Source: Ruegeria atlantica (lineage in GTDB: Bacteria > Pseudomonadota > Alphaproteobacteria > Rhodobacterales > Rhodobacteraceae). From it: a DNA stretch of 64,000 nt. The translations under genes and the position numbers were made by a program. The stretch spans positions 1 to 64,000 of the forward strand of contig NZ_CYPU01000072.1 in the NCBI RefSeq assembly GCF_001458195.1. Reading direction: 5' to 3'. Under the pieces are notes generated by a model. It was not told the origin of the DNA. It worked only from the letters and a program-made list of their open reading frames with translations, and did no database searches. Positions 7,126-55,580 of the stretch are shown in pieces (the first letter of the stretch is position 1; the number at the start of each line of letters is the position of its first letter).

Positions 7126-7711
7126 GGTCACAGCTGTCCGCCCCCTGACCGGGGCGGCGCTGACGGATGTCTTGGATGATGTGGCGCGTTTGCGGATCCA
7201 GGTGTTTTGGGCGTGGCCGTATCTGTATGACGGCGACATCAACTACGAGCGGAAGTACCTTCAGTCCTACAGGGACAGCGATAAGGCTATCGTGGTCGGG
7301 GCATTTTACAGAGACCGCCTGATAGGCGCTTCGACCGGTGCCCCACTGACCGACCACGCTGATGATTTCGCTGCCGCCTTTGATGGCTCTGGTCTGGACC
7401 TGAACGAAGTCTTCTATTGCGCCGAGTCTGTCCTTTTTTCGGATTACCGGGGGCAGGGAGTTGGCCATAAGTTCTTTGACCTACGCGAGGAACACGCACG
7501 CAAGCTGGGCTTCAGAAAATGCGCCTTTTGCAGCGTGCAGCGCCCTGTTGATCACCCGATGCGACCGGAAAACAATCGCCCCCTGGATGCCTTCTGGCGC
7601 GCGCGTGGATACGAACCGCTACCTGGTGTGATCGCGCAGTTTTCGTGGAAGGATGTTGGCGAAGAGGGCGAGACAGCAAAGCGACTGCAGTTTTGGATGC
7701 GGGATTTGTAG
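7118..7711 (+). CDS. GNAT family N-acetyltransferase
   Basis: A 197-aa acetyltransferase whose core strand VFYCAESVLFSDYRGQGVGHKFFDLREEHA contains the R-G-Q-G-V-G acetyl-CoA loop. The C-terminal strand and helix are YEPLPGVIAQFSWKD. It overlaps the SnoaL-like gene by eight bases, which indicates translational coupling and a shared pathway. A nitrilase-family hydrolase on the same strand follows after an antisense insertion, and the three may have formed one operon originally. The acetyl acceptor is unknown. Confidence 0.85.
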   Translation: MAEVTAVRPLTGAALTDVLDDVARLRIQVFWAWPYLYDGDINYERKYLQSYRDSDKAIVVGAFYRDRLIGASTGAPLTDHADDFAAAFDGSGLDLNEVFYCAESVLFSDYRGQGVGHKFFDLREEHARKLGFRKCAFCSVQRPVDHPMRPENNRPLDAFWRARGYEPLPGVIAQFSWKDVGEEGETAKRLQFWMRDL

Positions 7712-7850
7712 ATAGTTTTCGTCTGCTCTGCGGACGATATCGACGTTAGACCTCCCCGCGCAAACAGTAAGTGCCCGCGGTTCACGGCCGAAGTGGGAAA
7801 CGCTCGTGGCGCATTCCGATGCCTCGCGGCAGACGCGAAGAGAAATTGAG

Positions 7851-8411
7851 CTACCCGTCATCTTTCGGATAGATAAACCCGTTCACTGGGTAGAAATTGC
7901 CATATCGGCCCGGTTGGGTTTCAACACGGACCAAGGTCCAATCATTGTGTTTGGATACGTCCCTGACGCCCATTTTCAACGATACCTTGTTTCGGTGCCA
8001 GTTGGCGTGATTCACGATGACTTCCCGGTCCGTGACAATATCCGACACGACAGCCACATGACCCAGGGGCATCCCGCTGGTTGCCCGAAACGACATCACA
8101 GCACCGACAGCTGGTTCATTGCCGCGTTCAAATGCACTGCGCGCCCTTCCCCACCAATCCTTGGCGTTGCCGCGAATTTGGATGCCGCTGAGGTTACGTG
8201 CGTAGGGCACGCACCACACCCTTTGCCCCCGGGCTTGCTTTTGCGCGACCTCCCGCAAAGCCATTGACTGACGTTCCGGATTGAGGTCCGCATCGGTTGG
8301 ACGCTCGGCGCAAGCGGAGACAATACAACAAACTGCCACCGCAATCGCGGTTCGGGCGGTGCCGGACACGCGGGGCCAAATCGTATTTGTTTTGTGGGCG
8401 CTGTATTCCAA
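7851..8411 (-). CDS. CHAP-domain lipoprotein (putative amidase/peptidoglycan hydrolase)
   Basis: A 186-aa minus-strand protein starting at a TTG (8411). A hydrophobic segment TAIAVAVCCIVSAC ends in a lipobox (V-S-A-C, lipidated Cys34), so it should be an outer-membrane or periplasmic lipoprotein. The remainder is a CHAP domain: catalytic Cys67 in RVWCVPYAR, His118 in GHVAVV, and polar NHANW near 134. CHAP enzymes cut peptide amide bonds, often in peptidoglycan. It is the only minus-strand gene inside the 1-14 kb housekeeping block, a sign of later insertion. The true start could be a few codons further in. Confidence 0.8.
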   Translation of the reverse strand: MEYSAHKTNTIWPRVSGTARTAIAVAVCCIVSACAERPTDADLNPERQSMALREVAQKQARGQRVWCVPYARNLSGIQIRGNAKDWWGRARSAFERGNEPAVGAVMSFRATSGMPLGHVAVVSDIVTDREVIVNHANWHRNKVSLKMGVRDVSKHNDWTLVRVETQPGRYGNFYPVNGFIYPKDDG

Positions 8412-8707
8412 GATGCTTCATTGCCGGTTCGAAGACTAACGGGGTTCTACGATAATTTGACCGAAAATGAAAAGGGACCTGCCAATTCTCCAGCAAGATT
8501 TTGCCAGTTCCTTGTGCCGTTATTAACCCAATGGCTGAGATGGAAGACGCATATGCACTCGTTGTGACGGATGTTGCGCTTGAACAAGAGGTCAGCACTG
8601 AGCTCATAGTGGAGTTGTTCGTTCAATACACACGTTGACAGGATGGGGCTATACAGACCGCGAACTCACACATAAATTCGCCCGAGTTTGGACCGCAAGG
8701 ATAGCCC
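8412..8707. other. Intergenic stretch between CHAP and nitrilase genes, with one doubtful small frame
   Basis: About 296 bases without a convincing gene. A 35-codon plus-strand frame (8531-8638, peptide starting MAEMEDAYALVVTDVALEQ) is acidic and protein-like but has no ribosome binding site, so it may be a gene remnant. The stretch presumably carries the divergent promoters for the lipoprotein (minus) and the nitrilase-family gene (plus); no clear promoter boxes were recognised. Confidence 0.3.
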
Positions 8708-9583
8708 ATGAAAGTCGCTACTGCCGCCTATAACCTAGATTGGCTCGACAGCTGGGCGCAGTATGAGGACAAGCTAGACGGCTGGGTCTCGGACGCTGCG
8801 GGGCAGGGGGCGGAACTGCTGGTTTTTCCCGAATATGGCGCAATGGAGCTGTCGACGCTCGACGGGGCTGAAGTGGCGGGTGATCTGGAGCGTTCGATCC
8901 ACGCGGTCTCGGATCGGATGGAGGATGTGCGAAATCTACACCGGCGCCTCGCGCAGGAGTATAAGACGTACATTTTGGGCGCATCGGCCCCGGTTGTGGA
9001 TGGCCCCGGTCGACCTGTGAACCGGGCTGCATTCTATGCCCCAGATGGCAAACAGGACCACCAGGACAAACAGATCATGACCCGGTTCGAACGCGAGTCG
9101 TGGGATATTGCCCCTGGCGGCCCGCTGAAACTGTTCGATACTGCGCTGGGCAAAATCGGGGTGCTGATCTGTTACGATAGTGAGTTCCCGCTGTTGGGTC
9201 GTGCTCTCAGCGAGGCAGACCTTATCCTTGTCCCATCCTGCACCGAGGCGTTGTCAGGCTATTGGCGGGTGCGTATCGGCGCGATGTCCAGGGCATTGGA
9301 AAATCAATGCGTTACGGTAATGTCGTCTTTGGTTGGCGCTTATGAATGGTCCGAAGCTGTTGATATGAACACCGGCACTGGCGGTATATTTGGTCCACCG
9401 GACAAGGGCTTTCCCGCGACCGGAGTACTGGCCGAAGGCACCATGAACCAACCCGGCTGGACTTATGCTGAGGTCGACATGTCGGCCATCGCCGGTGTGC
9501 GGTCTGATGGCCATGTCCTCAACCGAACTCATTGGGATGAGCAATCACCCCGAGTCGATTCGGTCACAATATCCGCCCTATAG
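8708..9583 (+). CDS. Carbon-nitrogen hydrolase (nitrilase superfamily)
   Basis: A 291-aa amidase-type member of the nitrilase superfamily. The catalytic triad is readable: Glu42 in LLVFPEYGAMEL, Lys121 in HQDKQIMTRFE and Cys155 in GVLICYDSEFP. It probably hydrolyses a non-peptide C-N bond (omega-amidase, N-carbamoyl or nitrilase chemistry), but the substrate cannot be set from sequence. There is no signal peptide, so it should be cytosolic. It follows the SnoaL-like/GNAT pair on the same strand after the inserted antisense lipoprotein. Confidence 0.88.
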   Translation: MKVATAAYNLDWLDSWAQYEDKLDGWVSDAAGQGAELLVFPEYGAMELSTLDGAEVAGDLERSIHAVSDRMEDVRNLHRRLAQEYKTYILGASAPVVDGPGRPVNRAAFYAPDGKQDHQDKQIMTRFERESWDIAPGGPLKLFDTALGKIGVLICYDSEFPLLGRALSEADLILVPSCTEALSGYWRVRIGAMSRALENQCVTVMSSLVGAYEWSEAVDMNTGTGGIFGPPDKGFPATGVLAEGTMNQPGWTYAEVDMSAIAGVRSDGHVLNRTHWDEQSPRVDSVTISAL

Positions 9584-9634
9584 GTGATTCCGCCCTTGAA
9601 ATAGGGCCAAAATAGGCTCATTTAAGCGCACATC

Positions 9635-9651
9635 CCCGCAGATTCTGCGGG
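9635..9651 (+). promoter_or_regulatory. Hairpin in the infA leader
   Basis: CCCGCAG (9635-9641) pairs with CTGCGGG (9645-9651) across a three-base loop, 23 bases upstream of the infA start. There is no T-tract, so it is not an obvious terminator. It could protect the mRNA 5' end or modulate infA translation. Confidence 0.35.
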
Positions 9652-9674
9652 AGCAACTTAAATGTGGAGACAAC

Positions 9675-9893
9675 ATGGCCAAGGAAGATACGCTCGAATT
9701 TCCCGGTGTCGTGAAGGAACTCCTGCCTAATGCGACGTTTCGGGTCGAGCTGGAAAACGGCCATGAGATCATCGCACATACGGCAGGCAAGATGCGCAAG
9801 AACCGCATCCGTGTTCTGGCCGGCGACAAAGTTCAGGTCGAGATGACCCCCTATGATCTGACCAAGGGTCGGATCAACTACCGCTTCAAGTAA
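9675..9893 (+). CDS. infA: Translation initiation factor IF-1
   Basis: A 72-aa S1/OB-fold protein. The N-terminus [19 protein letters not shown] and the core [46 protein letters not shown]-type pattern are the canonical IF-1 sequence. It binds the A site of the 30S subunit during initiation with IF-2 and IF-3. A GGAG ribosome binding site precedes ATG 9675. maf follows after 11 bases, as in other Rhodobacterales. Confidence 0.98.
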
Positions 9894-9904
9894 CGCCTGC
9901 CGCA

Positions 9905-10483
9905 ATGGCGTTTATCTTAGGATCGGGCAGCCCAAGGCGGCTGGACCTATTGGCCCAGCTTGGCGTGCAGCCCGATGCCATCCGTGCACCCGACATTGAT
10001 GAAACGCCGCTGAAAGGTGAGCTGCCGGTGCCCTATTGCAATCGCATTACGCGGGCAAAAGTGCAGGCGGTACAGGCCGATGGCGACGATGTAACTCTTT
10101 GCGCGGATACCACGGTCGCACTGGGTCGCCGTATTCTGGGAAAACCGGAAGACGCGGGCCAGGCGGCTGAATTCCTGCATGCTTTGTCCGGTCGACGGCA
10201 CCGCGTAATCACCTCGGTCGCCGTACGATGCGGGGACCGCGTTCTGCAACGTGATGTGGTGTCTCAGGTCAAGGTCAAACGCCTGTCAGACGTTGAAATC
10301 AACGCTTATCTGGCGACCGGAGACTGGCAGGGCAAAGCAGGCGCTTACGCCATCCAAGGCCCTGCCGGGGCTTTCATCCCTTGGATTTCTGGTTCCTTTA
10401 CCGGCATCGTGGGGCTCCCCCTGTCCGAGACTGCCGCGCTTTTGCAAGGCATCGGCTATCCCCTGTATCGTGAGGTGTCATGA
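9905..10483 (+). CDS. maf: Maf-like nucleotide pyrophosphatase
   Basis: A 192-aa Maf/Ham1-type protein starting [18 protein letters not shown] after MA, which is the family signature loop. It also has the [10 protein letters not shown] segment and the [17 protein letters not shown] motif. Maf proteins hydrolyse non-canonical or free nucleoside triphosphates to monophosphates and are linked to division arrest and house-cleaning. The stop overlaps the start of the RNase E/G gene by four bases. Confidence 0.94.
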
Positions 10484-11502
10484 AGGGTCGAACCATTGTT
10501 CTGGATCACATCGAAAACCGCGAAGCTGCCGCCCTTATGGTCGACGGTCAGCTGGACGATTTCCTGATTGCAGCTGACGCGCCCGCGCCGGGTACGATTT
10601 ACCGTGCCCGTGCCGACCGACCGGTCAAAGGGCAGGGCGGCATGTTCCTGACCACACCTGACGGTCCGGCCTTTCTACGACAGATCAAAGGGCTCGCACC
10701 CGGTGTACTGATGTTGGTTCAGGTGACGGGCTATGCCGAACCCGGTAAGGCGCTGCCAGTGACCGATCGGGTTCTGTTCAAAAGCCGCTATGCGATCGTT
10801 ACGCCTGATGCGCCCGGTTTGAATATCTCACGTTCCATCCACGACGAAGATGAGCGTGACCGCCTTCTTGAAATCGCTCATGAGAGCATGGAGGGCAGCA
10901 GCCATGGCCTGATCCTGCGGTCCTGTTGTGAGGGCGAAGGTGCGGCTGAAATCGCCGAAGATATCGGTGCGATGCTGGCCCATGCGGATCAGGTTTTGAA
11001 CGATCCGGGAACTGAGCCCGAGCTGCTGCTGGAAGGCGACGGACCCCATGTTCTGGCCTGGCGCGACTGGACCGACCCGGCTGAGGTTGTGACGCAGCCG
11101 GGCAGTTTCGAAACGCATGGCGTATTGGATGCATTGGACGTGGCGCGTGGTATTTCCGAGCCACTGCCCGGAGGCGGGTATCTATATATTCAGCCCACCC
11201 GGGCCTTGGTCGCTGTGGATGTCAACACCGGGTCCGACACGTCGATGGCAGGCGGAACCAAGGTCAATTTCGCCTGTGCCAAGGGGCTTGCCCGTGCCTT
11301 GCGCGTTCGCGGTCTTGGGGGGCAAATCACTCTGGACCTAGCACCAATGCCTAAAAAGGATCGCCGTGGGTTCGAGGCCTCTCTGCGCGCTGCGTTGAAG
11401 GCAGATTTGGTCGAAACCACGCTGGCAGGTTGGACCCCTCTTGGCCACTACGAGCTACAGCGCAAACGCGGCCGTATCCCGTTGTCGGAAGTGCTGAAAT
11501 GA
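10480..11502 (+). CDS. Short ribonuclease E/G family protein
   Basis: A 340-aa member of the RNase E/G family, far shorter than E. coli RNase E or RNase G. It retains an N-terminal S1-like segment ([19 protein letters not shown]) and the catalytic region [14 protein letters not shown], with a second acidic motif near [17 protein letters not shown]. It lacks the C-terminal CPxCxG zinc-link and the long scaffold region of RNase E. A larger RNase E is presumably encoded elsewhere. It overlaps both maf and yacG by four bases, so the trio is translationally coupled. Confidence 0.88.
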
Positions 11503-11681
11503 GCTGCCCGATCTGCGCAGAAAAGTCTGTAACCGAGTTTCGGCCATTCTGTTCGAAGCGGTGTGCTGATATTGATCTGGCCAAGTGGCTGAACGGGTCC
11601 TACGCGGTTCCATCGCAGCGGGAAGAGGACGTTGAAACAGAAGTTTCCGATCCCGAACCAGAGCAACAACGTCCACATTGA
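11499..11681 (+). CDS. yacG: DNA gyrase inhibitor YacG (zinc-finger)
   Basis: A 60-aa protein that starts [10 protein letters not shown] and has the four-cysteine zinc finger C-x2-C ... FCSKRC, followed by the family motif [13 protein letters not shown]. YacG binds GyrB and blocks DNA binding by gyrase in E. coli. The ATG at 11499 overlaps the RNase stop (ATGA). The acidic C-terminal tail ([15 protein letters not shown]) is typical of the family. Confidence 0.93.
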
Positions 11682-48206: not shown

Positions 48207-48234
48207 AGAAGTCGACCTGCAGGTATTCAGCTTA

Positions 48235-48262
48235 CGCCGTCCCGTTCGGGGCGGCGTTTCTT
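48235..48262 (+). terminator. Intrinsic terminator of the DHPS operon
   Basis: ACGCCGTCCC (48235-48244) pairs with GGGGCGGCGT (48249-48258) over a GTTC tetraloop with one G-T pair, followed by TTTCTTT. It ends the transcription unit that begins at the LacI operators. Confidence 0.88.
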
Positions 48263-48368
48263 TGGTCGATTGCACCTCAATTTGATGCAGTTTCCTGAAT
48301 GTGATGTGACGCTACGTAAAGTGAATTTCAAAAACATTTTTAGAAGTTTCATCGCAAGGGGGAAAATT

Positions 48369-49667
48369 ATGAAATTCAAATTGCTTGCGCAGAGTGTACT
48401 TATCGGTGCCGGGCTGTTGATGGTTGGCCTAACGCCGGCGCAGTCTCAGACCCGCGAGGAAAGTCAGGGCATGGTTCTGCTGCGCGGTCTGCCGACGTTG
48501 GATACAAATCACAGCATCGCGATTGTCGAGCTGGATCCGGAATCCGACCAGTTCGGAGAGCTACTGAGTGAAGTTGAGCAGCCCGATATTCAGCATCCAT
48601 TGCATCACCTCTACTACAGCCCGAATGGGCGTCTCTATTCGACCGGGTTGGACCCATCCTGCAGTCTGGCTGAAATTGGACTGTCCCACGATTCCGGCGG
48701 AACGCCGGTGATTGAGGGCTTTACCTGTCTGGATACCCAAGGGCAGATCGTTGGCGAGGACATCATGTGGGCCACGTCGAACGGGCAGGAGTATATGTTC
48801 GTGACCTTCATGGGTGGCACTGGAGGCGATGATGGCGGCTCGGTCGGTGTTTTCGACACACAGACCAACGAGGTGGTCAAAATTATCGAAGCACGCAAAA
48901 GCCAAGTCGGCGAGGGTGAGCCATATATCATGTACCCACACGGGATATCTGCGTTCGACGACCGCATGGTGGTCACTTCGACGATACATCCCGATATGAC
49001 GACTGGCGTTGGAAATGTGTTGACGATCATAGACCTCAACACGCTTGAACCCATCCAAAACATCGTGGTGGAAAACGAAAAGCCGTTGGATTTTCCGTCT
49101 TCACCTGTCGAGGTGCTGTTCGCACGGCCTGACATGCATGCTGACATTGAACCGGCCATTCTGGCCAATACGATGTTCGGGTTCGAGACCTGGAAAATTC
49201 CCTATGACGCCGGTTCCAAAACCTTTGGTGAAGCCGAAGTCATATACAGTGGCGTGGCCAATGAAACCGCTGTTCCGCTGGAGTTCTATGGCACTGAAGA
49301 TGAGCTGTTCATCTCTCATGGATTGCCGGGTGTCGTGAAACGCTATGAACTGGCCGCACTGCCCGAGCTTGTGTCCAGCGGGCCGGACATCGTTGCCGAT
49401 CCGGGTGCACATCACATGATCTTTTTCACGTCCGCTTCCGGCCGAGACCTGATCGCCGTTCAAAATAACCTGCTCAATCTGGGCAACGCAGCTGATGACG
49501 ACCCAACGGATGTGGATTTTATTGCCGACCTGAACGCACACACGATCACGATCCATGATCTTGAGACGGGCGAACGTATCGCCGAGGTCAATTTCAAGGA
49601 GAGCTACAACAAAGGCGTGGACAACGTTGAAGGGCTGTTTGGTTCGGGTTTTGTGCACCACCATTAA
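48369..49667 (+). CDS. Exported beta-propeller protein, SBP56/methanethiol-oxidase-like
   Basis: A 432-aa protein with a signal peptide (KLLAQSVLIGAGLLMVGLTP, then AQS). The remainder has repeated propeller blades: SIAIVELDPESDQFGELL, YMFVTFMGG, GSVGVFDTQTNEVVKII, NVLTIIDLNTLEPIQNI and HTITIHDLETGERI. Adjacent His79-His80 in HPLHHLYYS and His in YPHGIS and SHGLPG recall conserved histidines of the copper enzyme SBP56 (methanethiol oxidase), but overall similarity is low. A GGGGGA ribosome binding site precedes ATG 48369. It leads an operon with MbnH- and MbnP-like genes. Confidence 0.65.
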   Translation: MKFKLLAQSVLIGAGLLMVGLTPAQSQTREESQGMVLLRGLPTLDTNHSIAIVELDPESDQFGELLSEVEQPDIQHPLHHLYYSPNGRLYSTGLDPSCSLAEIGLSHDSGGTPVIEGFTCLDTQGQIVGEDIMWATSNGQEYMFVTFMGGTGGDDGGSVGVFDTQTNEVVKIIEARKSQVGEGEPYIMYPHGISAFDDRMVVTSTIHPDMTTGVGNVLTIIDLNTLEPIQNIVVENEKPLDFPSSPVEVLFARPDMHADIEPAILANTMFGFETWKIPYDAGSKTFGEAEVIYSGVANETAVPLEFYGTEDELFISHGLPGVVKRYELAALPELVSSGPDIVADPGAHHMIFFTSASGRDLIAVQNNLLNLGNAADDDPTDVDFIADLNAHTITIHDLETGERIAEVNFKESYNKGVDNVEGLFGSGFVHHH

Positions 49668-49682
49668 TGCTCTGGGGGCGTT

Positions 49683-50804
49683 ATGCTTCGGGTGTTTTTG
49701 ACAGCGGCCGTCGCCGTGATGGTCGCGGCGACGGCGTGGGTTTTCTGGGACCGCGCACGCGGGTCGACGGCGACGCCGATTGCTGGCTTCTCGGCGCCTT
49801 TTGTTTTCGGACGCTTTGCTGTGCCGCCGGACAACCCGCTGACGGAAGAGGCCTTTGCCCTTGGGCGCCACCTGTTCTACGACCCGATCCTGTCTGGCAA
49901 CAATCAGGTGTCCTGCGCGACATGCCATATGCAGGCTCTTGCCTTCACTGATGGTCTGGCAAAGTCGCCCGCATTGTCGGGCGGAGAGCTGGAGTTCAGC
50001 TCCATGAGTTTGATCAACCTTCTTTGGGGCCAAGAGCGGTTCTTCTGGGACGGTCGCGCAACGTCGTTGGAAGCGCAGGCTTTGATGCCGATTCAACACC
50101 CGGACGAGATGGACCAGGACTTGGATGCGCTGATCACGGAACTGCAGGCATCCCGCGACTATCGACGGATGTTCCGCAAGGCATACGGGGAAGTCAGCGC
50201 CGAAAACGTGGCCCGGGCGTTGTCGACCTTCATGCGAATGCTGATTTCGACGGATTCAAAATACGACAGGTTTCTGCGGGGCGAAGTGCGATTGACCGCG
50301 CAGGAAGAACATGGCCGCAAACTATTCATGGCGCATCCGGACACCAAGGTTTCATTGCGTGGTGGGAACTGCATCGACTGCCACAGCCAGTTTTTGACTT
50401 CCGGGTTTCGGGACGCGTTGGATGGGTTTTCAAACAATGGGCTGGATTCCGATGACGACCTGCCGGATGGCCTGATGGCCGTGACCGGCAATCCGGCGCA
50501 CAAGGGCTTCTTCAAAGTGCCGACACTGCGCAACATCGCAGTAACCGCGCCCTACATGCATGATGGCCGGTTCGAGACATTGGAAGAGGTCATGGATCAC
50601 TACAATGACGGGATTGTCGTCAGCGATACGCTCAGCCCTTTGATCCTTGAGGCCGACAATGCGCCAGAGGCCGGGCAAAACACTGTGGGCCTGCGGATGA
50701 CGCCCGGTGAGGTTCAGTCCATCATCGCGTTCCTGAACACGCTGACGGATGAGGGTTTTCTAACAAACACCCAGTTTTCCAATCCGTTCGAAGGAGACGG
50801 CTGA
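49683..50804 (+). CDS. Di-haem cytochrome c peroxidase/MauG family protein, MbnH-like
   Basis: A 373-aa protein with an N-terminal membrane anchor or signal (FLTAAVAVMVAATAWVFW) and two c-type haem sites, CATCH at 78-82 and CIDCH at 230-234. FFWDGRA and the C-terminal VPTLRNIAVTAPYMHDGRF are typical of the MauG/CcpA superfamily. MbnH is the member that oxidises a Trp in MbnP to kynurenine; this gene directly precedes an MbnP homologue (TGATG junction), which supports that identity. It acts in the periplasm. Confidence 0.85.
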   Translation: MLRVFLTAAVAVMVAATAWVFWDRARGSTATPIAGFSAPFVFGRFAVPPDNPLTEEAFALGRHLFYDPILSGNNQVSCATCHMQALAFTDGLAKSPALSGGELEFSSMSLINLLWGQERFFWDGRATSLEAQALMPIQHPDEMDQDLDALITELQASRDYRRMFRKAYGEVSAENVARALSTFMRMLISTDSKYDRFLRGEVRLTAQEEHGRKLFMAHPDTKVSLRGGNCIDCHSQFLTSGFRDALDGFSNNGLDSDDDLPDGLMAVTGNPAHKGFFKVPTLRNIAVTAPYMHDGRFETLEEVMDHYNDGIVVSDTLSPLILEADNAPEAGQNTVGLRMTPGEVQSIIAFLNTLTDEGFLTNTQFSNPFEGDG

Positions 50805-51529
50805 TGCGTATTTGGATGACGGGACTAGCGATACTGTTGTTCGTTGGCGGAGCGCTGTTCTTTGCTCTTGGTCCTCAGCGCACTACGTCGATCACCTTGA
50901 CCTTTCATGCGAAGATGGGTGACGATCCGTTGATATTTGATGAGTTCGTGTACGATAACCCCGGCGGGTCCGGTACGTTCAGGGTTCGTGACTTTCGGTT
51001 TTACCTTAGCAACCTGACCCTCTCGCAAGATGGGGCGCTGTTTGCCGAGCCTGACAGCTATCACCTGCTCCGGTTCGACAATCCGGAAACAATCCATTCG
51101 ATCAGGCTGAACGACATTCCTCTGCGCAGCATTGAACACGTCCGTTTCATGATCGGCGTAGACCCAGAAGCCAATGGCTCGATCCAAGTGCGCGGGGATC
51201 TTGATCCCAACAGTCAAATGGCATGGAATTGGGAGGTCGGCTATAAATTCGTCGTGATGGAAGGAACGCTGCGCATTGGTGAAGAAGTCTCGCCGTTGGT
51301 CTATCACGTTGGGTTTTCGGAAAACGCGCGAGAGGTCGATATCCAGTTGCCACCGGATATCGGTTCTGATGGCAATGCCGACCTGCACGTGAACGTCGAT
51401 CTTGCAAAGCTGTTTGGCGGGCCTTCGCAAATTGATCTGCAAAAGCTCTCATCGGTCAAATTCAACCGCGAAGACGCCGCCATGCTGGCCGACAATTACG
51501 CGACCATGATGACCCCGATGTTTCGGTGA
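50804..51529 (+). CDS. MbnP-family copper-binding protein
   Basis: A 241-aa exported protein (N-terminal segment MTGLAILLFVGGALFFALG). The mature part starts with SITLTFHAKMGDDPL, where His35 is a likely copper ligand, and contains VRDFRFYLSNLTL and the family motif MAWNWEVGYKFVVMEG with Trp141 and Trp143. In characterised MbnP a conserved Trp becomes kynurenine through MbnH and a copper site forms. It is translationally coupled to the di-haem gene. No methanobactin genes are nearby, so it belongs to the wider non-methanobactin group. Confidence 0.8.
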   Translation: MRIWMTGLAILLFVGGALFFALGPQRTTSITLTFHAKMGDDPLIFDEFVYDNPGGSGTFRVRDFRFYLSNLTLSQDGALFAEPDSYHLLRFDNPETIHSIRLNDIPLRSIEHVRFMIGVDPEANGSIQVRGDLDPNSQMAWNWEVGYKFVVMEGTLRIGEEVSPLVYHVGFSENAREVDIQLPPDIGSDGNADLHVNVDLAKLFGGPSQIDLQKLSSVKFNREDAAMLADNYATMMTPMFR

Positions 51530-51549: not shown

Positions 51550-52302
51550 TCAGAACCGATAGGTCGCGCCGATCAACGGGCCGGACTGGTCAAACGTGAA
51601 ATCGTTGCCGTCAATCTCGTGATCGAAAGAGATATAGCGATAACCGCCGCGGATCACCCACCTGTCGTTGATTTCATAATCCGCAGTCAGCAAGACCTGC
51701 CATGTTTCGCTGTCGCTGCTGAAGCCGCCGTAGTCAAAAAAGCCAGTGCCGGACCACCTGTCGTTGAACGCGACCCGGGCTCGGACGCCGATGACCGGGT
51801 CTGTCCAGCTTTCATCAACATTGACGGACCGGCCGGGGGCTGCTCCGGGAAGGACGGCGAAATCGGTCTGCGTCCGAAACCAGCGGAAACCGCCGACCAA
51901 GTCCACGTAGGACGTATCTGTAGTATAAGCCCGGTACCCAACATAGCCGCTGAAAAATTGCGTTGTGAGAGAGGTTTCAAGACCAGAGCTTGCCGGACCG
52001 GGCGTGTCATTGCTGAAAGAGACGTCCACATAGTTGTAGTCGGCCAACAGTGACCAGCGCCCGTTCGATGCACCAAAGACGCCCATGAAGGCCAAATCGA
52101 GATTCTTCAGCGCGTCAGAGAAACTCAGCGTTCCATCAACGGTGCCGCGGGCTGTTTCCTGCGTAACCTCCGTTTCAGGCATGAACAGGTATATTGTTGC
52201 CTCATAGGACCAATCGGACTGCTGCGCCACAGCGGCAGTTGTCATTGGAATCCAGGTCGCCACGGCCCACGCAGCGGTTGTTATTGCCCTCTTAAAGACC
52301 AT
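51550..52302 (-). CDS. Outer-membrane beta-barrel protein
   Basis: A 250-aa protein with signal peptide MVFKRAITTAAWAVATWIPM..AAVA and alternating aromatic strands (SYEATIYLFMPETEV, WSLLADYNYVDVSFSND, FSGYVGYRAYTTDTSYVDLVGGFRWFRTQ split by turns, WVIRGGYRYISFDHEI). It ends GPLIGATYRF with the terminal Phe used by the BAM assembly machine. GGAGG precedes ATG 52302. It converges with the MbnP gene and is followed upstream by the DUF3179 gene. It is probably a small porin-like or structural barrel; ligand unknown. Confidence 0.82.
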   Translation of the reverse strand: MVFKRAITTAAWAVATWIPMTTAAVAQQSDWSYEATIYLFMPETEVTQETARGTVDGTLSFSDALKNLDLAFMGVFGASNGRWSLLADYNYVDVSFSNDTPGPASSGLETSLTTQFFSGYVGYRAYTTDTSYVDLVGGFRWFRTQTDFAVLPGAAPGRSVNVDESWTDPVIGVRARVAFNDRWSGTGFFDYGGFSSDSETWQVLLTADYEINDRWVIRGGYRYISFDHEIDGNDFTFDQSGPLIGATYRF

Positions 52303-52350
52303 TTTGATCCTCCGTTTGTTCCAATTTGGCAATCTGATCTGATTGCTCAC

Positions 52351-53595
52351 TCATTCAGCGGCTTCGCCAGACTGTTGTACGCGCGCACCGACACGGTTGA
52401 TATCGGTTTCCGGAAAGAACTCGGACCAGACATGCCAGAAAACACCGGCACGCAGGGTTTCGACGCGTTGCAGTTTTCCTTGATCCGACATTCCCCAGAA
52501 ATCGCAGCGGGTGATGGGCTGGCCTTTGTCATTGTACCAAACTCCAAGGCTTTCGTATTTTGGGTCCAGACTGACAACCACGTCTCGCCCACCGACATTT
52601 GCGTTTACGATCCAGTCATTCTCGACCACGAAATCATCGGTCCAGCAGGCAGCGTCGTTGCCGATCGTGATCCCCCAGACATAGGTCTTGTTCGGTAGCC
52701 GGTTGTCCGAGCTGTCCATGTTGTCCATGACTGGCGCATCTTCCTGATGCTGGCGCGCGATCCCCCAACCAAAGGTTATCTCGGTCACCATGTCCAGCAG
52801 CCGCAAGAATGGGTTGGGCGAGGGCGTGTTCAGATACACCTCACCATCGGGAAACGCTTTTTGAAATCCGCGGAACGTCATCCGATACGTGGGCCAGGGC
52901 TGCATCTTTGCTTTGGGGCGCACAGGGCAGGCAGGTCCATCCGCGCCAGTATCGCGATCCGCCTCGCGGAATCCATAGATCTGTTGGATCGGTTCCCCGG
53001 TTTCGTTGTCCCGCAGGATCAGGTTGTTGCCATGTTGGGCCAGAACTTCAAGATCCAGTCGGTTGCCCTCAATGCGTGGGGCATAGCCTTGCCCAAGGTT
53101 GGCCATCGCGCAAAAGGTCATGACGATATCTTCGCCACCCAGCCCGTCGGCATTGCCGGCCAAATGGGGCCGCATGATTTGCGCATCGGGGTGCGCGCGG
53201 GCGTGACCTTTATTTTCGATAACGATGACCGGCGCGGTCGGGCCTATGAATTTTCGCGCCTCGGAAATGGGAAAGAAGGCCGCAGTGTTGAGTTGATTCC
53301 TCAGCCCCAGATGGACCCACACATAGGGAAAGCCATACAAAATTAAAACCAGCAGCGCCGCGACCAGCCACAGCCAGAATGGGCCGCCGCCCAGAATGAA
53401 ATGCGCAAGCGTAGCGATGGCAAATCCGCTCAACCCCACTGCGATCAGGCGGTATTCGTGCCGGATAAACCGGATCATGTTTTTGCGTTTAACCCTAAGC
53501 ACCATTTGCGAAATGTCGCCAAGATCGCGGAAATAGACGAATCCTATACCCAGCGAGACAACCAGACCCAGAGCGAAAATGATGTTACCTAACAT
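52351..53595 (-). CDS. DUF3179 family protein with N-terminal membrane segments
   Basis: A 414-aa protein. The first 90 residues hold three hydrophobic segments (IIFALGLVVSLGIGFVYF; LIAVGLSGFAIATLAHFIL; FWLWLVAALLVLILYGFPYVW). The rest matches DUF3179 by HARAHPDAQIMRPHLAGNADGLGGEDIVMTFC-like and VWGITIGNDAACWTDDF with GGRDVVVSLDPK. The usual TYCPLC motif is replaced by TFCAMAN. The family function is unknown. It shares orientation with the barrel gene and sulfatase, and 48 bases separate it from the barrel gene. Confidence 0.7.
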   Translation of the reverse strand: MLGNIIFALGLVVSLGIGFVYFRDLGDISQMVLRVKRKNMIRFIRHEYRLIAVGLSGFAIATLAHFILGGGPFWLWLVAALLVLILYGFPYVWVHLGLRNQLNTAAFFPISEARKFIGPTAPVIVIENKGHARAHPDAQIMRPHLAGNADGLGGEDIVMTFCAMANLGQGYAPRIEGNRLDLEVLAQHGNNLILRDNETGEPIQQIYGFREADRDTGADGPACPVRPKAKMQPWPTYRMTFRGFQKAFPDGEVYLNTPSPNPFLRLLDMVTEITFGWGIARQHQEDAPVMDNMDSSDNRLPNKTYVWGITIGNDAACWTDDFVVENDWIVNANVGGRDVVVSLDPKYESLGVWYNDKGQPITRCDFWGMSDQGKLQRVETLRAGVFWHVWSEFFPETDINRVGARVQQSGEAAE

Positions 53596-53658
53596 GTGGA
53601 TACCCTAAGTGTTCGAATTCAAAAGCCCCGAGGGGTTCGATGCCCGAATGGCGCTGAC

Positions 53659-55326
53659 CTACTGTTGGGGAGAGGCACCTTTGATCTTAAATGCTTCAAC
53701 CGCATGCTGCGTTTCAGGGCGAAGGTTTTCGATGCCTTCATACGGGATGCCGTACGCGGGCGATGTATCAGGGAATTTCTCTTTGCGGGCCATGTGCCTC
53801 CCCAGAATACGCACAAACTCTGCGCCGCCCCATGCGCCAACTTCGGTGGAAACCGGGTACTCTTCGCGGGTGTCACGGTAGAGGTTGTAGAAATCCGCCA
53901 GGATAGCGTTTTCGATCGACCCTGGAAAAGTCAGCTTCAGCTGATCCTTGATAATCGCCTGAGGTGTATGGATCGAATAGGCAATCACGCTATCGCGTCG
54001 GGCTTTTTGTTCGTCCTGAAACAGGATGGCGGCGGTTTGATCCACACCATCGACCAGCCGATCCCGGGGAATATGTTGGGTTGCGCCGGCAAATCGCGCC
54101 AGGGTCGTATACAAGTCAGAGACGTGCACGATACTATTTAGCATCCCGTCCGCCTCGATCATTCCGGGCCAGCGAATAAAAGCGTCAACACGAATTCCGC
54201 CTTCACTGGTATCGCCTTTCCCTCCGCGAAAGATCATTGCCGAGAAACCAGATTGTGGGGAGTATTTGGTAAAATGCCCGTTGTCGCCCATCACGACCAC
54301 AATGGTATTGTCCGCAACACCCAGCGTATCAACCTCTTCAAAAAGTTCACCCAACCATTGGTCAAGAAGTTGCATCTTGTCGACAAAAAGCCCCGCGTTG
54401 GCGCTTTCTGGTCCCAATCGTCCGGTCCGGGTGCTGTCGATTGGGATCATGGGCCAATACTGAAGGAAAAAAGGTTCCTCTCCGCCCGATAGGCGACGCA
54501 GCTCGTCCAGAGTTTTGTCTTGAAACGCCTGATTCATCTGGTCGTACTTTTCAGCCCCCCAGCGTTCGCCGGGCTCCATGCGGATCTCACGCACAGGTTT
54601 ACCGGCTTCGCCCTCAATTACTGTCAACATCGCCGCCGGATCAGGGCGGAACCAACCGTCGATAGTGTAGATTGGATCATAGTCCCCTATACCAACCGAA
54701 ACCTGTTCACGCACGCCATCATCATTGAAGATATCCAACTGGCCCTGTTGGTGAACCGCGTGCTGGGCATAGTCAAATCCCTGATTCATCGCCCAACTTT
54801 CAGCGATATCCCCCATATGCCATTTGCCTATGTGCGAGGTCGCGTAACCTGCGTCTTTCAGGACCTCGGCCAAGGTGACCTCTTGCCCAGGCAAACCAAA
54901 GCCGGAGATGTCGACCGAGGTGTTTCCCATTCCCATGCGAACAGGCAATCGCCCTGTCATCTGTGCGACACGGGTCGGAGTGCAAGAAGGTTCAGTATAC
55001 ATGCGGACCAACCGCATGGCTTCGTCTGAAAAAGCATTGATACTTGGGGTTTCGTATCCTCGCACAGCGTTAAGTTCAGGTATGCCCATGTCGCCGAAGC
55101 CGACATCGTCGATAAGAATATTGATGATGTTTGGTGCTTTCCCACCGTTAGACTCACGAAAAGCGGCAAGCGCTTCGTTTACGGCTAAGTCGTCCTGCGC
55201 CCATTGTTCTGCATGCTGTGCCTTCAGGATGTAATACTCGGCATCGTGTTGAATTGGATTTTCCTGCGCTTCAGCTGATAAGGCGGCAAAGCCCATCGAC
55301 AACACAAAAACACACTGCAATTTCAT
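53659..55326 (-). CDS. Type I arylsulfatase (exported)
   Basis: A 555-aa sulfatase with signal peptide MKLQCVFVLSMGFAALSAEA. Metal-binding Asp73-Asp74 lie in INILIDDVGFGDMG; the sulfatase signature around Cys115 (SCTPTRVAQMTGRLP, C-x-P-x-R) is the site of formylglycine conversion; HIGKWHMGD and MGDNGHF complete the active site. It would hydrolyse a sulfate ester outside the cytoplasm. The formylglycine-generating enzyme is not in this window. ATG 55326 with GGGGAGA upstream was chosen over a longer frame. It may feed sulfate to the cysteine synthase pathway. Confidence 0.9.
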   Translation of the reverse strand: MKLQCVFVLSMGFAALSAEAQENPIQHDAEYYILKAQHAEQWAQDDLAVNEALAAFRESNGGKAPNIINILIDDVGFGDMGIPELNAVRGYETPSINAFSDEAMRLVRMYTEPSCTPTRVAQMTGRLPVRMGMGNTSVDISGFGLPGQEVTLAEVLKDAGYATSHIGKWHMGDIAESWAMNQGFDYAQHAVHQQGQLDIFNDDGVREQVSVGIGDYDPIYTIDGWFRPDPAAMLTVIEGEAGKPVREIRMEPGERWGAEKYDQMNQAFQDKTLDELRRLSGGEEPFFLQYWPMIPIDSTRTGRLGPESANAGLFVDKMQLLDQWLGELFEEVDTLGVADNTIVVVMGDNGHFTKYSPQSGFSAMIFRGGKGDTSEGGIRVDAFIRWPGMIEADGMLNSIVHVSDLYTTLARFAGATQHIPRDRLVDGVDQTAAILFQDEQKARRDSVIAYSIHTPQAIIKDQLKLTFPGSIENAILADFYNLYRDTREEYPVSTEVGAWGGAEFVRILGRHMARKEKFPDTSPAYGIPYEGIENLRPETQHAVEAFKIKGASPQQ

Positions 55327-55580
55327 TCTAATCTCCCCTTCAGAATGTCGACTCCACAGCGCAGGCTGTTTGTCATATTGAAACATTATTACATTTGCCG
55401 TTGAAACGCTACGTCGCAAAAGCCGGGTGGAGGTAACCTCTCAATTTATTAGGAAAGTCCGTCACACGCGGGCCGTATGCCACGTGTCTTAGAGGCTGAC
55501 ATGAGGAACCCCAGAAGGTTGCGCAAAACCACGCGAAATATACGAGAGAAGCGGCGTGGGTGAACCGTGTGTTTCGGCAG
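55327..55580. other. Intergenic region upstream of the sulfatase gene
   Basis: A 254-base interval between the glutaminase stop and the sulfatase start on the same strand. AT-rich sequence near 55370-55400 may hold the sulfatase promoter. No gene, RNA or clear hairpin was recognised. Confidence 0.3.

Follow-up and report, generated by a model that had tools for sequence, protein, structure and literature searches.

The three adjacent genes at positions 48369 to 51529 of a 64,000-nucleotide stretch of Ruegeria atlantica DNA (assembly GCF_001458195.1, contig NZ_CYPU01000072.1, positions 1 to 64,000 of the forward strand; hereafter the window) probably make an uncharacterised copper-dependent envelope protein and a dedicated pair of helpers that handle its copper. 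The first gene encodes a propeller protein, the second an MbnH-like di-haem protein of the MauG family, and the third a Cys-poor MbnP. What the data show directly is the operon and its maintenance as a unit, along with the predicted fold and a set of conserved residues. The features are as follows:

48369..49667, + strand: propeller gene; 432 amino acids from the ATG at 48369, with an N-terminal export signal judged by eye
49683..50804, + strand: MbnH/MauG-family di-haem gene; 373 amino acids, with an N-terminal membrane anchor judged by eye
Residues 78-82 and 230-234 of the MbnH-like protein: CXXCH haem motifs, both kept in 36/36 rows (row set defined below)
50804..51529, + strand: MbnP gene, Cys-poor; 241 amino acids, with an N-terminal hydrophobic anchor judged by eye
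48207..48368, + strand: region 5' of the propeller gene; by eye, a GC-rich hairpin past the sulfopyruvate decarboxylase gene and then a purine-rich stretch up to the ATG

The start of MbnP overlaps the stop of MbnH in the sequence TGATG, and 15 bases separate the propeller gene from the MbnH-like gene. An earlier note on this DNA had described one operon with a 16-base gap and this TGATG junction; the operon and the junction were borne out, and the gap was one base too long. The propeller gene is present in one copy in the window's genome.

A genome scan with the propeller as bait, which by design cannot reveal MbnH/MbnP pairs lacking a propeller, yielded 41 loci, some of them from genomes that also belong to the order, class, and phylum samples described below. 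All three genes were found in the same order and on the same strand in 37 of the 41, including one locus (L071) that holds only the start of MbnP, a recurrence beyond what chance would give. The remaining four comprised two loci ending at a contig edge (L090 and L094), one with a broken propeller gene from genome G128 (L088), and one adjoining a phage terminase gene (L063). In this last locus (7507-11523) an intact propeller without MbnH or MbnP is followed downstream by the terminase gene, and its C-terminus reads AHH, not HHH. The hosts of the 41 loci extend to distant bacteria, among them Ruegeria, Leisingera, Simiduia, Alteromonas, Colwellia, Thalassotalea, Vibrio sagamiensis, Bowmanella, and one metagenome-assembled genome called Gemmatimonadales. 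Counts over 36 rows and the congruence trees of the cassette genes refer to 35 of the 41 loci plus the window; L066 (MbnH extraction running past a stop), L071 (MbnP truncated at the contig edge), L063, L088, L090, and L094 were left out. The gene trees of the cassette were congruent over these 36 rows (r 0.86-0.87; 0/1000 permutations as high), a result that owes part of its strength to common species history and counts as no more than supportive.

Among 390 genomes of the window's order, propeller matches occurred in 15: seven from the same genus, the window's own included, at full or nearly full length and at least 76% identity; a same-genus remnant in G374 (residues 1-99); a partial match in G128 (residues 24-329); and six remote matches at 28-34%. 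The family PF20243, to which MbnP belongs, was found in 16 of the 390, namely eight same-genus genomes with a propeller (one a remnant) and eight from other genera that were all absent from the propeller list; the fetched contexts of these last eight contained no propeller, and the MbnP/MbnH visible there were canonical. In G374 (L023, 7887-8460, - strand) a deletion scar fuses the propeller start to the MbnP end, and MbnH has been lost. In G128 (L022 9600-9776, the same gene as in L088) the match breaks off at about residue 329, some 76 bases short of the contig edge, where the gene continues into unrelated sequence, possibly an insertion element. The G128 genome yielded no MbnP; this case argues against an obligate linkage, and the locus may be another decayed cassette. 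A sample of 148 genomes from another order contained one strong MbnP of the cassette type, in G1044, which carries a complete triad including the propeller, as well as five weak, Cys-rich MbnPs with no propeller match in their genomes and one further genome with a remote propeller. Cassettes lacking a propeller, which the earlier note had regarded as damaging to its reading, were not encountered in this MbnP-first sampling of two orders: cassette-type MbnP always came with a propeller, in 8/8 same-genus genomes (one a remnant) and for the 1/1 strong match in the other order. Propeller matches, the window's own included, were found in 11 of 385 genomes of a class sample and in 5 of 398 of a phylum sample; all but that of G1044 were remote, and G007 and G1036 match only the propeller stretch shared with SBP56. 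A plasmid collection gave no cassette match, although records of closely related genomes may be missing from it.

The propeller scored 18.7 bits against the Pfam family SBP56 (PF05694; cut-off 34) over residues 44-81, and a profile alignment to eight SBP56 proteins with hhalign gave 97.6%, E 4.8e-12, over 298 columns at 16% identity. A sequence search of the PDB with the propeller profile returned 2ECE, the SBP56 of Sulfolobus, as its sole match (E 0.035). An AlphaFold2 model built from 41 sequences (27 close and 14 remote; L027, L119, L126, and others were left out) has seven blades, a predicted local distance difference test (pLDDT) score of 88.2, and a predicted template modelling score of 0.87; an earlier model from 7 close sequences (pLDDT 56.5) was discarded. 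The top Foldseek match of the model was again 2ECE (E 4.9e-11; Z 30.7, root-mean-square deviation 3.4, 359 residues aligned, covering residues 28-432), followed by gluconolactonase-type propellers (Z 28-29), and lower scores were obtained for N2O reductase (Z 24.9) and thiocyanate dehydrogenase (Z 23.9, root-mean-square deviation 4.0, 333 residues aligned). Judged from profile and model together, the propeller is a remote relative of SBP56; the exported SBP56-like propeller of the earlier note thus stands as a distant relationship, and plain SBP56 membership does not, as the score is below the Pfam cut-off.

According to a strand map drawn by eye, the first strands of successive blades open with PLHH (79-80), GED (130-131), PHG (191), PVE (248), PLE (305), and AHH (348-349). 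Eight of these residues, H79, H80, E130, H191, E248, E305, H348, and H349, were invariant in all 41 rows of the structure alignment, and D131 was nearly so; the remote propellers are only 24-28% identical, yet they keep the blade-start residues. All 15 propeller sites tallied were unchanged in 36/36 rows. The C-terminal HHH was present in 36/36 rows and in 37 of the 39 loci having a stop codon; among remote relatives H432 alone is nearly invariant, and the full HHH is not. Candidate metal ligands, which the earlier note had proposed to look for by structure prediction, are present, with many invariant metal-type residues at the blade starts. In SELENBP1, mutations at H73, H74, and E252 suppress activity (excerpt of PMC10362175). 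With the SELENBP1 residues put onto the SBP56 alignment by motif, H79, H80, and E248 of the propeller (each 36/36) fall in hhalign register with these three residues. SELENBP1 D189 faces S194, three residues past H191, in a register that is uncertain at 16% identity. For the HXXH of SELENBP1 (H137 and H140), no two of the 11 invariant propeller His are spaced three residues apart; aligned by hand, the HXXH position of SBP56 lies near E130 to M133 of the propeller, and the GPQM of SBP56 corresponds to GAHH (348-349). By alignment, the propeller carries only part of the SBP56 ligand set.

The assignment of the other two genes to a MauG-family di-haem protein and an MbnP was confirmed, with both Pfam scores above their cut-offs. 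The MbnH-like protein scored 188.2 bits against CCP_MauG (cut-off 25.6) and 249 bits against NCBIfam TIGR04039, below its cut-off of 362.85; its best PDB match was the di-heme enzyme 6E1C (E 3.2e-54), which we take to be MbnH. W122 and Y291 were kept in 36/36 rows, and W122 presumably lies between the haems, as in relatives. The cassette proteins were 58-98% identical among themselves, versus 32-37% to seven MbnH of the other type, and their clade was split off with a support of 1.0 in a tree that took in 7 of 8 canonical MbnH loci.

MbnP scored 144.5 bits against PF20243 (cut-off 27) and 44.7 bits against NCBIfam TIGR04052 (cut-off 140, not reached). M139, W141, W143, and H168 were kept in 36/36 rows, and both Trp lie where they had been placed from the sequence at first sight; the M-x-W-x-W motif and the His align with eight canonical MbnPs, and we assume that these four residues serve in copper binding. 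In Methylosinus MbnP, Cu(I) binding reportedly requires that the first Trp of WxW be converted to kynurenine. The WxW stretch also aligns weakly with the sole PDB match of the MbnP profile, 7L6G (E 0.74), the title of which reads metallo-mystery pair system four-Cys motif protein. This four-Cys motif is absent from the cassette MbnPs, 28 of 36 being without Cys and the others having 1-3, and the canonical MbnPs aligned have several. Identity was 35-90% within the cassette type versus 18-21% to 13 MbnPs of the other type, from which the cassette clade was separated with a support of 1.0. In these trees, the cassette MbnP and MbnH form fully supported clades distinct from the sampled canonical pairs.

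We give about an even chance to the reading that the triad comprises a copper-dependent envelope propeller loaded via its own kynurenine-type MbnP, for which we infer copper, kynurenine, and substrate. The membrane-anchored MbnH, with its two haems and the Trp between them, would oxidise W141 of MbnP to kynurenine; MbnP would then bind Cu(I), in which M139 and H168 are the likely ligands, and would pass the copper to the propeller, a delivery that is plausible. The blade-start His and Glu, perhaps with the C-terminal HHH, would make up a copper centre located within or above the central channel, and the copper-loaded propeller would oxidise or reduce a small periplasmic substrate. More tentatively, and somewhat short of even, the propeller may represent a new class of envelope copper enzyme with two HH pairs, a lone His, and acidic residues at blade starts and an HHH at the C-terminus, loaded by a co-evolved, Cys-poor kynurenine MbnP made by its own MbnH.

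Several observations weigh against a propeller supplied with copper by MbnP. Three of the six SELENBP1 activity residues are unmatched in the hhalign register, the matched ones being the HH pair and E252. In the model comparison, lactonase propellers outrank N2O reductase (Z 28-29 versus 25), so the predicted fold alone is no argument for copper. L063 and G128 carry a propeller without MbnP, though the gene of G128 is broken. None of the 17 loci with remote propellers had an open reading frame matching MbnP or MbnH profiles, yet the aligned remote proteins (24-28%) keep the blade-start residues; therefore, the propeller site need not depend on MbnP. Finally, no neighbour cluster outside the triad occurred in more than three of the 27 loci compared (of 41), and the neighbours give no clue to a substrate.

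As a separate observation, six of the 17 remote-propeller loci (L024, L025, L117, L124, L126, and L128) have nearby a membrane-like protein of about 470-500 amino acids with the motif H[AG]FGxR[YH], of which the copies in L025 and L124 matched no Pfam family.

A possible, though doubtful, alternative, which we rank second, is that the cassette serves copper acquisition or storage. MbnP would then exchange copper with a non-catalytic propeller that acts as a metal-binding partner or chaperone, either periplasmic or at the surface. AztD is a zinc chaperone with a propeller fold, and its structures 6cmk and 6n01 are within the first 50 Foldseek matches of the model; furthermore, the C-terminal HHH belongs to a tail modelled with low confidence (pLDDT about 59), as would be expected of a mobile metal tail, and 13 of the 36 propellers carry a match to a simple lipobox pattern, all of which would suit such a role. 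However, eight invariant blade-start residues held down to 24% identity seem beyond the need of a simple chaperone, and the 27 loci compared show no recurring transporter or regulator family next to the triad.

It is quite unlikely that MbnH modifies the propeller itself, giving a Trp-derived cofactor of the kind proposed for methanethiol oxidase (MTO). W134 and W275 are invariant (36/36), the propeller of the window has no other Trp, and tryptophan tryptophylquinone (TTQ) has been proposed in MTO with its MauG neighbour cited (excerpt of PMC5739008). Nevertheless, in the 37 complete loci MbnH also has beside it an MbnP with an invariant WxW, and on the strand map drawn by eye W134 and W275 lie in different blades, which makes a TTQ-like crosslink look unlikely. 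A methanethiol or other thiol oxidase, as a periplasmic SBP56 subtype, is similarly improbable: in its favour are the distant homology to SBP56, which is also the best match in fold, and the common HH motif and Glu, but the propeller is below the Pfam cut-off, lacks an invariant HXXH, and has GAHH for GPQM, and thiol oxidation is not favoured because the window's genome additionally encodes three true, full SBP56 genes. Located 3' of two of these three genes is a membrane-like protein with the motif YHGxNPGMGWPLAVSAALM (L157 5524-6192 and L158 4128-4799); its L157 copy matched no Pfam family, and a ZrgA zinc uptake gene is found nearby.

Sulfopyruvate decarboxylase genes (TIGR03845 and TIGR03846) precede the cassette in the window, and the earlier note had placed the cassette next to this sulfonate operon. 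We rejected a link to sulfonate metabolism: the beta-subunit gene is within reach of the cassette in 8 of 41 loci only, all Ruegeria, yet 16 of 17 genomes of the genus that lack the cassette carry it (79-93% identity). In two of these 16 (L164 and L168) the beta-subunit gene is immediately adjacent to the outer membrane protein gene found after the cassette in the window, giving an empty site. Because the decarboxylase gene persists without the cassette and two empty sites exist, the cassette is a separate unit that comes and goes, and its adjacency to the sulfonate operon is incidental. Downstream of the cassette (51550-55419), genes for an outer membrane barrel, a DUF3179 protein, and a sulfatase form a group that recurs in cassette-bearing Ruegeria loci and is partly present in two loci without the cassette.

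A literature search returned no title on a propeller-MbnH-MbnP cassette, with neighbourhood analyses inside the main MbnP/MbnH papers outside its scope. The role of MbnH/MbnP was left open in 2013 under the heading 'mysterious partners' (excerpt of PMC3621798). Such pairs occur far beyond methanobactin producers, and the cassette offers a concrete, small, and testable client, namely one propeller beside a distinct MbnP clade. Later work reportedly found kynurenine and Cu(I) in MbnP, and we know of no earlier case of an MbnH/MbnP pair serving a defined client enzyme. If the proposed reading is true, the cassette would be the first such case to our knowledge, would link protein kynurenine formation to the copper loading of another protein, and would add a member to the known copper propellers.

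Compared with known systems, the cassette shares with MopE/CorA a kynurenine-type copper protein paired with a di-haem protein (excerpt of PMC3621798), from which it differs in that MopE/CorA is not markedly similar to MbnP in sequence and that a propeller is not mentioned in that excerpt. Canonical MbnP/MbnH pairs (PF20243, TIGR04052, TIGR04039; 7L6G, 6E1C) resemble the cassette pair in the PF20243 domain, the M-x-W-x-W and His, the two CXXCH motifs, and the putative Trp between the haem sites, whereas the cassette pair falls in separate, fully supported clades, has 0-3 Cys in MbnP, is ordered MbnH then MbnP, and has a propeller gene in front. N2O reductase is a periplasmic copper propeller with channel histidines that include an HH pair. 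Thiocyanate dehydrogenase has the same description (excerpt of PMC6504805); however, the similarity of both is at the level of fold only (Z 24-25), and their operons are other ones. The closest likeness in fold is to SBP56/MtoX/SELENBP1, with the HH dyad (H79 and H80) and the Glu (E248) in register, while the propeller differs from SBP56 in its score below the Pfam cut-off, its lack of an invariant HXXH, GAHH for GPQM, and the HHH C-terminus. SBP56 is a copper enzyme with SCO1 and MauG-family neighbours, and MtoX operons likewise place a copper protein (SCO1) and a MauG-family di-haem protein beside the propeller (excerpt of PMC5739008). In contrast to the SBP56 operon with SCO1/SenC and MauG, MbnP occupies the place of the copper protein in the cassette, the design of which would parallel SBP56-SCO1-MauG with MbnP replacing SCO1.

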